The notes under the pieces: model-generated | Database searches by the model: none | What the model saw: only the letters and a program-made list of their open reading frames with translations | What the model was told of the DNA's origin: nothing | Program-made: the position numbers and the translations under genes | Shown: piece by piece, positions 13,818 through 20,039 of the stretch | How positions within the stretch are numbered: position 1 is the stretch's first letter | How the letters are laid out: every line of letters begins with the position of its first letter | Assembly (NCBI GenBank): GCA_947178175.1 | Contig: CAMWXI010000006.1 | Span: forward strand, 1 to 35,874 | Length of the DNA: 35,874 bases | Origin: an uncultured Porphyromonadaceae bacterium | Lineage (GTDB): Bacteria; Bacteroidota; Bacteroidia; Bacteroidales; Muribaculaceae | Direction: 5' to 3'

Positions 13818-16571
13818 ATGAACCGAAACTTAAAATCATTATTAATCTTTTCAGCATTTGCAGTTGCGTCTTTTTGCAGCTTCATGACATACTCCGACTC
13901 TAAAAGGGGGATGAACACTGAGGAAATCAACCGTATTTTAAAAGAAGGATTAACTCTCTATCATGAGAATCAGTTAGCCAAAAGTGCTGAAAAATTTGAA
14001 ATCATACTTCCTGAAGTAGAGAAGTTCAGCGAACAATATGAAAAAATACTGGAACATCTCGGAATGATTTATCTCGACCTGGAAGATGAAGTAAACACAA
14101 ATCGTATCCTTAATCTGATTGAAGAACACAACCAACAAGAAATGAGCAAGGAGTGTGTCACTCCCAAGTGCCATCTTGAAAAGGCAACCCTCTTCTACAA
14201 CAAAGGAAATTCCGCTGAAGCCCGTCTGGAATTTAATAAGGCTTTGGAATACGCCACCACCGAAGCCGAGGAGACCGATATTTACTTAAGTATGGCTTCC
14301 TTTCTCTTCACACAAAACGACTTTCTACATTCTGCAGAATATTACTCTCTGGCTGCCGAAAATCTTAGGAGAAATATGGCCGGACCCGACCAGTATGCCG
14401 ATGTGTTGATTAAATCAGCCGTATCTTTCTATTTAGCCCGGGAGTATGATAAAAGCAATGCCATTTATCGCCAACTATCGGAATCTGCATCATCACTTAA
14501 TTCAAAACATAAAAGAGACGTTCTTAACGGCCTCGGAAGAAATTATCATGCACTGAAGAACTATCCGGAAGCAATCTCCAGCTATAAGCAACTAATATCT
14601 CAACTTGAATCAGATGGCATGACTTCTGATATTGAATATGCAAAGGGTATTCAGGCGCTCGCTTCAGCAGAAAAATTAAATGGAAACTTTGAGGAAAGTA
14701 TTTCGGATTATCAACGATGCATCTCATTATTTGAAAATCTTGAAAAATATGATGAAGCCCGGAATGCCCGTAATTCCATGAAGCTTATTAATGCCCATGC
14801 CAAAAAAGAGTTGGTACCATACAGCGATGATGAAGGAGAAGATGAAAAAGCAAAGAAGATAAACGACGATAAACTCCGGGATATTATTAAATCGGAACTA
14901 TTCATTCTTAATAGTTCAAAAGGAATAATGGGTAAAGTGTCCGATGCCAGGTCGCTCGCTACCATTGCCGGTTGCTATGCGGAACTCGAAGAATACGAGC
15001 CTGCCCTTAATTACTACGCAGACTATATTCGTGAAATACGCCCTGCACTTAGTGAGGATTTCATTCTTAAGTCTCCACGTGACCGTGAGTTGTCCTGGCA
15101 AAGAGATTTGGAGAATATCCAAAATCTTAAGGAATTGATTACTCTTATCCCACAGTCACCGACTCTATATGGTGCTATATCTAATTTGATTTTTGAGGGT
15201 GAGCTGATTTCAAAGGGTATTCTTCTTTCCTCCAACACAGAGTTTGAAAAGATTATTAAAAATTCCGGCTCTGATAAACTAAAAAAGGAATATGCTGATA
15301 TCAAGAAAAATCTTGCAAAAATTGAAGACCTGAGGAATAGTGAAGTTGATATTTCTGATATCCTGAGACTTACAAGGGAGACCGATGCAATGCAAATCTC
15401 TTTGGCAGAAAAAAGTAAGCAGTATGCAGATTTCATGAACTTTCTCAAAATATCTGCATCCGATGTTCTCAACGCTCTTCAGGATGATGAGGCCGCAATC
15501 GAATTTGCTACCGTCAGAACATATGATATCTTAACAGGTGATATTCTCTTAGCAGTCTTGCTAAACAAAACTTTTCCAAACGGGATCGCTATCCCTATTG
15601 CCCCTGTAAAAATGATTACGGAACTCTCGGAAAAAGAAGATTTGTTTTCAAATGACAACTATGGGAAACTCATCTGGGAAACAATCTTGAACAATCTTCC
15701 CCATATCAGAAAAATATTCTTTGCCCCAACCGGTATTTTAAATAATATCGGTATTGAATACTTGTCTGTTGCAGGAAAACCGATTTCTGACCAAATGGAT
15801 TTGGTACGTCTCTCCTCTACACGCGAATTAGCCAGGAAACATGACCCTGTTACATTAAAGGAGGCAACCCTCGTGGGAAACATTGACTACTATGGTGACA
15901 AAGAGTTGATAGATGTTTCTTCCAACCCGGTCATAGCATCTCTTCCGGAGGATAATATGGATTATGAATTCCCCGATCTTCCAAATTCCGCAGAAGAGAT
16001 TTCTAAAATTGGGGAATTAATCACACGTCAGTCAAAACATTCTCCTTGTATTTTAAGTGAATGCCTTGCGACTAAAGAAAATTTCCTGAAAATCCAAAAT
16101 TCTCCCGTAAACATACTACACGTTGCCACACATGGGAAGTATCTGGACAGCAATGGAACAGATTCTGATGCAATGCAACGCAGTTTCCTCGCAATGTCAG
16201 GAGCAAATATGTATCCTAAACTCTCTAAGAATCCATGTATCGTTTCTGCGGATGAGATTGCAGAGATGAATCTAAACAATTGTGGGTTAGTTGTTCTTTC
16301 CGCCTGCGAAAGTGGGCTTGGAAAATTAGGAAGTGATGGAGTATTCGGTCTTCAACGAGGTTTTAAAAATGCCGGCGTAAAAACGTTGCTTGTCAGCCTT
16401 AAGGAAGTATCTGACTATATCACCTCGAATTTTATGATAAGATTCTATTCCCATCTCACGGAAAAAGAGAATACTCCAATAAGCGAAGCTTTCAAATTGG
16501 CACAGTCCGATATTCGGAAAGAATTTCCCTCAGATGATACCTGGGCCTATTTTATTCTTATTGACCCCTGA
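13818..16571 (+). CDS. Exported TPR-repeat CHAT-domain (caspase-like) protease (module 2)
   Basis: Hydrophobic N-term SLLIFSAFAVASFCS; multiple TPR-like repeats; CHAT HVATHGKYLD (His 16131-16133), LVVLSACESGLG (Cys 16305-16307), GVFGLQRGFKNAGVKTLLVSL. Confidence 0.88.
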   Translation: MNRNLKSLLIFSAFAVASFCSFMTYSDSKRGMNTEEINRILKEGLTLYHENQLAKSAEKFEIILPEVEKFSEQYEKILEHLGMIYLDLEDEVNTNRILNLIEEHNQQEMSKECVTPKCHLEKATLFYNKGNSAEARLEFNKALEYATTEAEETDIYLSMASFLFTQNDFLHSAEYYSLAAENLRRNMAGPDQYADVLIKSAVSFYLAREYDKSNAIYRQLSESASSLNSKHKRDVLNGLGRNYHALKNYPEAISSYKQLISQLESDGMTSDIEYAKGIQALASAEKLNGNFEESISDYQRCISLFENLEKYDEARNARNSMKLINAHAKKELVPYSDDEGEDEKAKKINDDKLRDIIKSELFILNSSKGIMGKVSDARSLATIAGCYAELEEYEPALNYYADYIREIRPALSEDFILKSPRDRELSWQRDLENIQNLKELITLIPQSPTLYGAISNLIFEGELISKGILLSSNTEFEKIIKNSGSDKLKKEYADIKKNLAKIEDLRNSEVDISDILRLTRETDAMQISLAEKSKQYADFMNFLKISASDVLNALQDDEAAIEFATVRTYDILTGDILLAVLLNKTFPNGIAIPIAPVKMITELSEKEDLFSNDNYGKLIWETILNNLPHIRKIFFAPTGILNNIGIEYLSVAGKPISDQMDLVRLSSTRELARKHDPVTLKEATLVGNIDYYGDKELIDVSSNPVIASLPEDNMDYEFPDLPNSAEEISKIGELITRQSKHSPCILSECLATKENFLKIQNSPVNILHVATHGKYLDSNGTDSDAMQRSFLAMSGANMYPKLSKNPCIVSADEIAEMNLNNCGLVVLSACESGLGKLGSDGVFGLQRGFKNAGVKTLLVSLKEVSDYITSNFMIRFYSHLTEKENTPISEAFKLAQSDIRKEFPSDDTWAYFILIDP

Positions 16572-16700
16572 TTAAAAAACTGCGGTATATGATTTAGTTA
16601 TTTCTTCCTTTTATCCGATTGATTCATAACATGCAACGCAAAAAAAGACCTAAGTGACAGATTTTGCATTTAAGTCTACTCTTTATCGTAAAAAAAGCTT

Positions 16701-17006
16701 ATGAGAAACAACGAAGAATATAAACCTGAGCCGATAGACACTACCGGTGTCACCCTGCCGGAATCTTTGGAAAAATTAGCCGAACTAATGGCTAAGAATG
16801 TACATGAGGTCTGGGCGCAAAACCGTATTAAGGAAGGTTGGTCCTTTGGAGAAACAAGAGATGACCGGAAGCGGAAACATCCATGTCTCGTAGAATATGA
16901 AAAACTCCCTGAAAGTGAAAAGGATTATGACCGTGCCACATCCATCGAGACTCTTAAATTGATACTCAGCAATGGATTTAAGATTATCCCTCCTGAACAA
17001 GAATAA
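16701..17006 (+). CDS. Stand-alone RyR-domain protein
   Basis: 101 aa; LEKLAELMAKNVHEVWAQNRIKEGWSFGETRDDRKRKHPCLVEYEKLPESEKDYDRATSIETLKLILSNGFKI, closely matching C-terminus of product of 4464-5450. Confidence 0.88.
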   Translation: MRNNEEYKPEPIDTTGVTLPESLEKLAELMAKNVHEVWAQNRIKEGWSFGETRDDRKRKHPCLVEYEKLPESEKDYDRATSIETLKLILSNGFKIIPPEQE

Positions 17007-17080: not shown

Positions 17081-17088
17081 TATATTTG
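17081..17088 (+). promoter_or_regulatory. Putative -7 box TATATTTG immediately before repeat element A
   Basis: Exact TAnnTTTG match; no convincing -33 TTTG at standard spacing. Confidence 0.35.
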
Positions 17089-17100
17089 CAGAAATATAAT

Positions 17101-17202
17101 GAAGTGACTAAACTTATCTTTATGGCAAGATTAATGAAGATTGCCAAAAGACTTACATATCTTCATAAGATTTATTATACATAAATAAGTTTAGAAAACT
17201 TC
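17101..17202 (+). repeat. Short palindromic element, copy A (MITE/REP-like) with terminal inverted repeats
   Basis: GAAGTGACTAAACTTAT ... ATAAGTTTAGAAAACTTC: 10-bp perfect arms CTAAACTTAT (17108-17117) / ATAAGTTTAG (17185-17194); internal TAATGAAGAT/ATCTTCATAA arms; core repeated inverted at 19942-19988. Confidence 0.7.
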
Positions 17203-17355
17203 TATATTAAGCAGACACCTGATTTAAGAGCCAACGCTATATTTTTTGAGAGACGACAAATTTCTTCATTGATACTTCCTTGTCTCCCTAAGATATATAT
17301 AATTTGCTTAACATCATCCTATCTGAATTATTATCTAAAATACAAATATAACATC

Positions 17356-18228
17356 ATGAGGGCAACTGAGTTTATCCATCCTGAAGATGCCGCGGCACTC
17401 CGTCAGCTGGAGGGAATCCCCGGCTTTCCTACTCTTGTCAAGAAATTCTACTCCTTAGGTATAGAGAAATTTAGATATGGCCTGAATATGGCATCCAATA
17501 TCCGGCTCTCAGAAAATCAACTTCCGGAATTATACTCTCTTCTACCTCCTATTTGTGAGAAATTAGGTATTCCCGAACCGGAGTTCTACCTCGAAATGAA
17601 TCCGATGCCTAATGCCTATACATTCGGTGATACGAAAATATTCATCACTGTCACTTCCGGATTGGTGGAGATGATGGATACAGATGAGCTTACCGCGGTC
17701 ATAGGGCATGAATGTGGCCATATACTATGTCGCCATGTTCTCTATCACAACATGGCAATCATGCTCCTTAATGGCGCAGAGTCATTCGGACTGCCGGGAA
17801 TATTTTCCGCTCCTATAAAATATGCACTTCTATATTGGATGCGTAAGAGCGAACTCACATGCGACCGTGCGGGAGCAATCGTGACCTCCCCGGAGGTTGT
17901 AGCACGCACCATGCTCCGTCTTGCCGGCGGCCCCAAATCCATAACCAAAGATGTCAACATGGATGAATGGGTGAAACAGGCCGATGAATATGAAAAGATT
18001 CGCACAGACGGAATGTGGAACAAGACTCTCCAGACCTTAGCGGTTATGGAAACCGACCATCCATTCTCCGCGGTGCGTGTTTCCGAAATTCTGAAATGGG
18101 GAAAATCACAGCAATATAAAAATATTCTCAATCATGCTGATGCAAAAGACGGGAAAATATGCCCCAAATGCCATAGGACAGTAGATCCCTCCTGGAAATT
18201 CTGTCTTAACTGCGGTACTAAACTGTAA
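17356..18228 (+). CDS. M48-family zinc metallopeptidase with C-terminal zinc ribbon
   Basis: HECGH motif in DELTAVIGHECGHILCRHVLYHN; second ligand region KSELTCDRAGAI; C-term ICPKCHRTVDPSWKFCLNCGTKL; start revised from 17269 to MRATEF. Confidence 0.88.
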   Translation: MRATEFIHPEDAAALRQLEGIPGFPTLVKKFYSLGIEKFRYGLNMASNIRLSENQLPELYSLLPPICEKLGIPEPEFYLEMNPMPNAYTFGDTKIFITVTSGLVEMMDTDELTAVIGHECGHILCRHVLYHNMAIMLLNGAESFGLPGIFSAPIKYALLYWMRKSELTCDRAGAIVTSPEVVARTMLRLAGGPKSITKDVNMDEWVKQADEYEKIRTDGMWNKTLQTLAVMETDHPFSAVRVSEILKWGKSQQYKNILNHADAKDGKICPKCHRTVDPSWKFCLNCGTKL

Positions 18229-18246
18229 TTAATTAAAATCATAAAT

Positions 18247-18516
18247 ATGAACCGATTATTTGACGAAAACGGATATCTCAACATTTCTGAAATCGTAGAG
18301 AATCATCCATCTTATAAAACCATTATGGAAGATGGTATCGTAACAGACAGCGAACTCAAGGAGCAGTCAGAAAGAACCATCAAATCTCTCCGTCGTCTGC
18401 AGGATTTGTGCAATGAGGAACAGCAATCCGCAATTCTTGACGCGATCTCGGAAATGGGAGTACTCTTCACTACTTACAATACTTACCAGCTTCAGGAACT
18501 TACAAAAGATATCTAA
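18247..18516 (+). CDS. Small conserved-type hypothetical protein (89 aa)
   Basis: Tightly spaced in operon between M48 and zinc-ribbon genes. Confidence 0.6.
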   Translation: MNRLFDENGYLNISEIVENHPSYKTIMEDGIVTDSELKEQSERTIKSLRRLQDLCNEEQQSAILDAISEMGVLFTTYNTYQLQELTKDI

Positions 18517-18518
18517 TC

Positions 18519-19049
18519 ATGGGTGCATATAATACCAAAACTATTTTAGGGGCCGACCCTCAGCTAATACCTGCCATAGCCGAAAGAATTTCTCAGATAT
18601 TTGCCGCCGACGGATATGAAGTGAAGCAAGATAATCTGTTGAACGGCGGTATTGACATCTCTGTCACAAAAGGTGGTATTTTCAAAGCCGTACTTGGTCT
18701 TAAAACAGCCCTCAAGATTACTCTGTCACCGGAGGGTAACAGAATACTTTTTGATGCCGGAATAGGAATCTTCGGACGTCAGATTATACCAACTATCATT
18801 TCAATGTTTTTTGCATGGCCCGTGCTTATAACCCAGATTTGGGGAAGTGTGGAACAATCAAAACTTGATGACCGGGCTCTCGCCGCTGCCAATGATGTGA
18901 TTCGCGAGCATCAGATGGGAGGATATGGCACACCGACTCCTCCTCCATTCGGAACCCGACAGGGTAACAGCCGATTCTGCACTAACTGTGGCAACCCTAT
19001 ACCTGCAAATTCAAAATTCTGCCCCAATTGCGGCACTCCCCTTTCCTGA
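18519..19049 (+). CDS. Zinc-ribbon (double CxxC) membrane-associated protein
   Basis: C-term RFCTNCGNPIPANSKFCPNCGTPLS; hydrophobic stretch IIPTIISMFFAWPVLITQIW. Confidence 0.75.
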   Translation: MGAYNTKTILGADPQLIPAIAERISQIFAADGYEVKQDNLLNGGIDISVTKGGIFKAVLGLKTALKITLSPEGNRILFDAGIGIFGRQIIPTIISMFFAWPVLITQIWGSVEQSKLDDRALAAANDVIREHQMGGYGTPTPPPFGTRQGNSRFCTNCGNPIPANSKFCPNCGTPLS

Positions 19050-19900
19050 TGGCAGACAATTATCTTGAACGTAAAATGGAGGACTTGCGAAACGGAAAAC
19101 TTTCCGGCAGGTCCTCTGTCTTGCAACATACCGGTCAACGAAAAGGTGTCTGGCAATTATCCTTCCCCCCTCGCCGTGTACTTGTCACGGGAGGCTGTCA
19201 CGGAATAGGACTGGCTGCAGTGAGGGAATTCCTTCGTCTCGGTTGCAAAGTAGCCGTGTTTGATATTGACAATGATGCAGGCAAATTACTTGCCTCAGAA
19301 AATGGAGTAAGATTTTATCAGCTCGACCTGGCAGACACCGACTCTCTTGAAAACGCCATATATGACCTCTTCAAAGCCTGGAGAGATATTGATATTATTG
19401 TTAATAACGCAGGCATTGGCAGATTCCACCCTCTGACTGAGTCTTCAACCGAGGAGTTTGACTATGTACAGGCGGTTAATATGCGGCCGGCATATATCAT
19501 CTCCCGTCTTTGGGCTCTACATCGTCAGAAGTTTCCTATAATCTCTGACTACACCGGTAGAATGATAATTATATCTTCAACACGCCATTTGCAAAGTGAA
19601 GCCGGCACTGAAGCCTATTCTGCAAGTAAAGGTGCTCTGGCTTCCCTCACCCACTCGTTGATGATGTCACTCTCTGAATTTAAAATTACTGTCAATTGCA
19701 TTTCCCCGGGATGGATTAATACGACCGATGAAACGCTTTCGGAGTCAGACAACCTTCAGCATCCTTCACGAAGAGTGGGAACACCGGAAGATATTGCAAG
19801 ACTGGCAGTTTTTCTTGCCCTTCCCGATAATGACTTCATAAATGGTGCTGATATACCGGTAGATGGCGGCATGACCCGAAAAATGATTTATATGGAGTAA
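19049..19900 (+). CDS. Short-chain dehydrogenase/reductase (SDR)
   Basis: VLVTGGCHGIGLAAVREF, NNAG, YSASKGAL, INGADIPVDGGM; ATGA overlap with upstream gene supports start at 19049. Confidence 0.9.
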   Translation: MADNYLERKMEDLRNGKLSGRSSVLQHTGQRKGVWQLSFPPRRVLVTGGCHGIGLAAVREFLRLGCKVAVFDIDNDAGKLLASENGVRFYQLDLADTDSLENAIYDLFKAWRDIDIIVNNAGIGRFHPLTESSTEEFDYVQAVNMRPAYIISRLWALHRQKFPIISDYTGRMIIISSTRHLQSEAGTEAYSASKGALASLTHSLMMSLSEFKITVNCISPGWINTTDETLSESDNLQHPSRRVGTPEDIARLAVFLALPDNDFINGADIPVDGGMTRKMIYME

Positions 19901-19941
19901 TGAAATCGTCCTGACATATTTACTGACTAATAAAGCCTTCC

Positions 19942-19988
19942 AAGATATGTAAGTCTTTATTTCAATCTTCATTAATCTTACCATAAAA
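19942..19988 (-). repeat. Palindromic element copy B core (inverted relative to copy A)
   Basis: Reverse complement TTTTATGGTAAGATTAATGAAGATTGAAATAAAGACTTACATATCTT vs copy A TTTATGGCAAGATTAATGAAGATTGCCAAAAGACTTACATATCTT; similarity extends weakly on both sides (about 19925-20012). Confidence 0.8.
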
Positions 19989-20039
19989 TATGGTTAAGTC
20001 AACTTCAATACATCTTCTTGCTGATGCATGGTTCGATAC

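Follow-up and report, generated by a model that had tools for sequence, protein, structure and literature searches.

Two relic MITEs of probable IS5-type origin around four neighbouring genes in an uncultured Porphyromonadaceae bacterium, and a conserved hairpin in their full-length relatives

Several families of short, non-coding palindromic elements have been described in bacteria, and three sets of them bear on the locus analyzed here. The Porphyromonas gingivalis MITEs BrickBuilt, MITEPgRS/464, MITE239 and MITE700 have the same ends as complete IS5-family elements found in that species (PMC4596501). In Amoebophilus asiaticus, ISCaa2, ISCaa3 and ISCaa6 are ISL2-like IS5 elements of 914-991 bp encoding 275 aa and mostly lacking direct repeats (PMC3196728). 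Structured bacterial MITEs also include Correia/NEMIS and ERIC, with RNase III proposed to cleave NEMIS RNA (PMC2229807), and the QMITEs of Coxiella, which give rise to small RNAs (PMC5896051).

The stretch of DNA analyzed in this work (the window) comprises 35,874 nucleotides from an uncultured Porphyromonadaceae bacterium and contains two palindromic elements, A and B, in opposite orientation on either side of four genes (Table 1). The most probable reading (probability about 0.92) is that both A and B are old MITE copies of an IS5-type element, shortened internally and separately inserted among genes that are ordinary neighbours. Like the P. gingivalis MITEs, the family to which they belong occurs in the same order, is non-coding, has IS5-family ends and retains no transposase remnant; the ends of the P. 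gingivalis elements, however, differ in sequence (GAGACC..., ACGTCA...), their duplications vary in length where those of the A/B family measure 3 bp, BrickBuilt holds a 23-nt minisatellite, and the consulted portion of that account describes no covarying hairpin of the kind found in full-length A/B relatives (PMC4596501). The A/B family also resembles the Correia/NEMIS, ERIC and QMITE elements in being small, palindromic and mostly intergenic, and the known transcripts of those elements fold (PMC2229807, PMC5896051); no sequence relation to them is shown, and a hairpin common to elements with unrelated ends sets the present case apart.

Table 1. Location of elements A and B, their flanks and the surrounding genes in the window
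Feature	Position	Strand	Remarks
CHAT/TPR protein	13818-16571		
RyR-domain protein	16701-17006		
Left flank of A, AAT	17098-17100	none	
Element A, relic MITE, 102 bp	17101-17202	+	R1 match E=2.7e-18; ends and flanks read
Left terminal inverted repeat of A, GAAGTGACTAAACTTATC	17101-17118	+	
Right terminal inverted repeat of A, ...AAGTTTAGAAAACTTC	17185-17202	-	
Right flank of A, TAT	17203-17205		AAT on the left; imperfect duplication
M48 peptidase with C-terminal zinc ribbon	17356-18228	+	Pfam PF01435; not cargo
89-aa ORF	18247-18516	+	neighbour, not cargo
Zinc-ribbon protein	18519-19049	+	neighbour, not cargo
SDR	19049-19900	+	neighbour, not cargo; occurs elsewhere without the other three
Target duplication AAT left of B	19899-19901		overlaps SDR stop codon TAA (19898-19900)
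Element B, relic MITE, 105 bp	19902-20006	-	opposite to A; R1 match E=4.5e-15
Target duplication AAT right of B	20007-20009		exact match to left copy
143-aa ORF	after SDR	-	
DUF2130 protein	after 143-aa ORF		

A preliminary description of the window had reported this inverted pair and the four genes enclosed by it, and on both counts the locus is as described. Repeat search yields two inverted matches (17105-17143 with 19963-20001, 82%; 17147-17177 with 19928-19958, 84%); the window has exactly two occurrences of the 17-mer AAGATTAATGAAGATTG, with four matches against 0.51 expected by chance when up to three mismatches are allowed; and BLAST of A against its own genome returns B (E=9e-15) together with copies on other contigs. 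The limits given there, 17088-17202 and 19925-20012, are corrected in Table 1 by the terminal repeats, GAAG...CTTC, that bound both elements. A near-identical core of about 46 bp had also been proposed; the similarity is there, but it is merely part of an alignment that covers both elements from end to end (81% identity, 82 of 101 aligned positions). Each element is palindromic on its own.

For genome-wide searches, a model (R1) was built from ten own-genome copies (alignment A1), using sequence only because RNAalifold gave no pairs on the ten copies. R1 detects about 26 copies in the genome of origin at E<0.05, some of them entered for both strands owing to their palindromic nature, and the copies are dispersed; with simple ORF calling, 25 of 26 copies checked fall outside long ORFs. 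These copies measure approximately 47 to 105 bp, conform to the consensus GAAGTYGTCTAAACTTATTTTTATGGTAAGATT...TTTATTATTCGTAAATAAGTTTAGACRACTTC and share the family ends GAAGTYGTYTAAACTTAT, each copy having terminal inverted repeats of its own. Across the genus, the exact end pattern GAAGTYGTYTRAACTTAT is present in 48 of 111 genomes, against none for the reversed control pattern, and in copy-rich genomes the elements are mostly 190-205 bp long, often with 20 perfect terminal base pairs. Named records carrying the 20-base end belong mostly to Muribaculaceae, with further instances in Chryseobacterium, Elizabethkingia, Pedobacter, Niabella, Cloacibacterium and Rhodocytophaga. Five viral contigs bear the end pattern, and a 52-bp element with family ends lies in an IMG/VR viral contig (L234:14239-14290).

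Short, dispersed in multiple copies and devoid of an internal transposase gene, A and B belong among the MITEs. A literature search for the family's end sequence returned only unrelated subjects, and no description of the family was found in a literature coverage that leaves out most subscription journals; the family is apparently undescribed, although of a known kind. Identity with the REP/RAYT system, in which short palindromes tagged GTAG/CGTC are associated with a RAYT transposase, is unlikely given the 3-bp duplications and the IS5 partner.

Evidence of transposition comes from the flanks. Identical 3-bp flanks border 43 of 88 distinct elements of the genus, compared to 11.2 expected and a maximum of 21 in 500 shuffles, with no excess of identity at 1, 2 or 4 bp; the commonest duplications among the 43 are ATT (15) and AAT (11). 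At one locus (L103) an element interrupts another, with ATT on both sides of the insertion. Family ends are moreover found in pairs, about 900-960 bp apart, at four loci. Three of these are 959 bp long, each coding for an intact protein of 276 aa, and the two that were scanned score above the cut-off of the NCBIfam IS5 model NF033580; the fourth, in Chryseobacterium echinoideorum, spans 903 bp and has IS5-type domains too. The protein contains the Pfam domains DUF4096 and DDE_Tnp_1, identifying it as an IS5-type DDE transposase. Protein search with this transposase yields matches in 35 of the 111 genus genomes at E<1e-5, many of them weak or in pieces, and none in the genome of origin, which is 84% complete; an autonomous element with the same ends exists in the genus. 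In all six intact genus copies examined the ends lie 957-959 bp apart, and in two interrupted copies 957 and 961 bp apart.

Insertion sequences of the ISL2 group generate 3-bp, ANT-like duplications. The partner IS, with its length of 957-959 bp, single 276-aa IS5-family transposase and ends of about 20 bp, resembles the ISL2-like elements; its length and the ANT-like 3-bp duplications make the ISL2 group the candidate subgroup. The mostly absent direct repeats of the A. asiaticus elements differ from the A/B family in this respect (PMC3196728). The interiors of the MITEs share only chance-level stretches with the IS, and the link between the two is therefore drawn from ends and duplication length. 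Taken per palindrome, the earlier suggestion of a MITE-like nature holds: the family's copies are dispersed and have terminal inverted repeats, insertion is accompanied by 3-bp duplications, and the genus has a matching autonomous IS.

The mechanism we propose is that an IS5-family transposase would recognize the ends GAAGTYGTYTAAACTTAT and move the non-autonomous element, duplicating 3 bp at the target, mostly ATT or AAT. A would have inserted in the intergenic gap between the RyR and M48 genes and B, separately, just behind the SDR stop codon, both decaying thereafter. We infer that it was this IS5 group that mobilised A and B, that the two insertions were independent and that both copies are now immobile; the family, its ends, duplications, nested insertion and matching genus IS are all observed, together with a relative's RyR-M48 gap without A.

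That relative (G084) is central to the alternative raised in the preliminary description, whereby A and B would be the ends of one composite, mobilised cassette that brought the four genes to this site. The two inverted elements enclose exactly four genes, and the outer flanks of the pair, left of A and right of B, both read AAT, so that the duplications alone are compatible with one composite insertion. AAT is, however, a preferred target (11 of 43), which makes the outer match weak evidence, and B has a complete duplication of its own. Beyond the genome of origin, the M48 gene is detected at E<1e-20 in just three genomes of the genus. In G084, the nearest relative that has it (M48 76% and RyR 65% identity), it follows RyR in the same orientation as here across a gap of about 55 bp with no element; the other three genes of the block are absent after it. 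Empty-site comparison thus argues against the cassette, RyR and M48 being already adjacent where A is lacking. Because the gap in G084 has diverged, it counts as a site lacking A and not as a precise empty site; A may also have been lost from it. SDR homologues occur in 18 of 111 genomes, including the genome of origin, and in the 11 other genomes read their surroundings to 1.5 kb hold no further gene of the block. The enclosed genes do not move together as a unit in G084 or at the SDR loci, and the cassette, largely refuted by G084, is now very improbable. To judge from these comparisons, the block is no travelling unit, because G084 lacks the other three genes and SDR homologues occur without them, and A interrupts a gene adjacency that is found in its absence as well.

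Two copies can be expected to fall within 3 kb of each other by chance. By our estimate, about 26 copies in 1.9 Mb should give approximately one neighbouring pair less than 2.7 kb apart at random; three are seen, namely A-B and one pair each on contigs C24 and C42. On this reading, A and B flank the four genes by chance. As for the genes themselves, the CHAT/TPR and RyR-domain proteins (13818-17006) both have relatives beside M48 in G084, and the group may constitute a functional neighbourhood. PADLOC gave no credible defence match for the block genes; the DUF2130 protein, which is not part of the block, matched LmuB weakly.

It had also been suggested that the segment is invertible, in which case A and B would be its recombination sites, a reading to which their inverted orientation and identity of about 81% lend themselves. 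The relative orientation of RyR and M48 is, however, the same in G084, the sole relative compared, and the two sequences are members of a dispersed repeat family instead of a pair peculiar to the locus: A and B match a third copy, on contig C18, as well as they match each other (identity A-B 0.81, A-C18 0.79, B-C18 0.80). Identity of 81% with short exact stretches is, in addition, poor for homologous recombination. We regard inversion as the least credible of the explanations considered.

A third possibility, improbable if less so, is that A is a co-opted MITE that forms a structured leader on the M48 transcript and has stayed in place for this regulatory role. On the + strand A folds better than all of 200 shuffles (z=-4.0). 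It starts about 12 bp downstream of TATATTTG (17081-17088), which we take to be a candidate Bacteroidales-type -7 box, and, on this reading of the sequence, A may be transcribed in the M48 leader; fuller relatives, moreover, carry an RNA-like hairpin. Against this, the palindrome by itself accounts for the fold of A, B folds barely better than its shuffles (z=-2.1 and -1.4), and the conserved internal hairpin is missing from both elements. Rfam searches of the window and of the MITE loci returned nothing meaningful. If A and B do share RNA regulatory structures, as had been suggested, these would lack the conserved hairpin, although fuller family members carry an RNA-like structure.

The hairpin of the full-length (190-205 bp) members spans about 90 nt and consists of a long imperfect stem with a conserved asymmetric internal loop, GAAGARGG / GACYGAUGA; examples of such full-length members are L078:288-491, L105:227-419, L085:120-311 and L052:1501-1703. 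In two MITE copies, L077:251-523 and L053:1501-1771, the hairpin tip holds an extra insert (...GGAGACAA...CTGAAAGGAATGCGGGCATCG...). In an alignment of 28 distinct copies, pairing holds in 95.7% of cells, and both partners vary at 23 of the 29 pairs; cells with both-side changes number 162 versus 44 in shuffles, and covariation is 0.577 versus 0.215 (slid controls at most 0.173). For 56 distinct matches, many in elements with other ends and aligned by fitting to the structure, the corresponding values are 92.0%, 26 of 29 pairs and 0.671 versus 0.210. On the motif strand, G-U outnumber A-C cells by 53:7, 103:22 and 122:14 in three overlapping sets, compared to 6:3 in the terminal arms, counts that are biased by the inference of the structure with G-U allowed. 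By a crude gene caller, the motif shares the direction of both flanking genes 44 times and opposes both 21 times (p=0.006).

A model of the hairpin matches 36 of 41 genus genomes, with up to 82 copies each and five in the genome of origin, and three more genomes, one of them in the same family, in a 149-genome sample of the order. The hairpin lies inside elements whose ends, read by eye, are quite different, such as AAGTAACTGTTCAAAATTATTTT, AGAGGGTGTTTAATAACAG and AGGYATGTTCTATAAATT; in the genome of origin it is carried by a second element family with ends CTCCTTTCCACAAAAAATG, also read by eye (L293:1501-1592, L296:1501-1592 and 1733-1824, L306:1501-1592), the two copies in L296 standing in opposite orientation about 140 bp apart. 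Instances with different ends from other genera and families are seen, at about 1501-1591, in L286, L287, L289, L292, L294, L297, L299, L305 and L307.

The hairpin has no match in Rfam and looks new; a hammerhead, considered for the GAAGA / CYGAUGA loop, does not fit in strand order, and a kink-turn is a further candidate reading of this loop. Covariation in the hairpin is strong and strand-asymmetric. At roughly even odds, full-length members carry a structured RNA, conserved and about 90 nt long; it may further be that this structure and not the ends would be the conserved cargo across Bacteroidales MITEs, and that it may act in the transcripts of neighbouring genes or in mobilisation. Covariation could alternatively reflect a single-stranded DNA hairpin that is under selection while the element transposes, or correction of palindromes as DNA is replicated; the conserved asymmetric loop speaks against the second of these.

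For the window, these results remove a false lead: a cassette is very improbable, as is a phase-variable switch. At the level of the genus, they bring to light a MITE family, apparently undescribed, and the IS that partners it, as well as a covarying hairpin without an Rfam match, present in as many as about 80 copies per genome within elements whose ends differ. If this hairpin acts as RNA, it would constitute a widespread structural layer in the transcripts of common gut bacteria.
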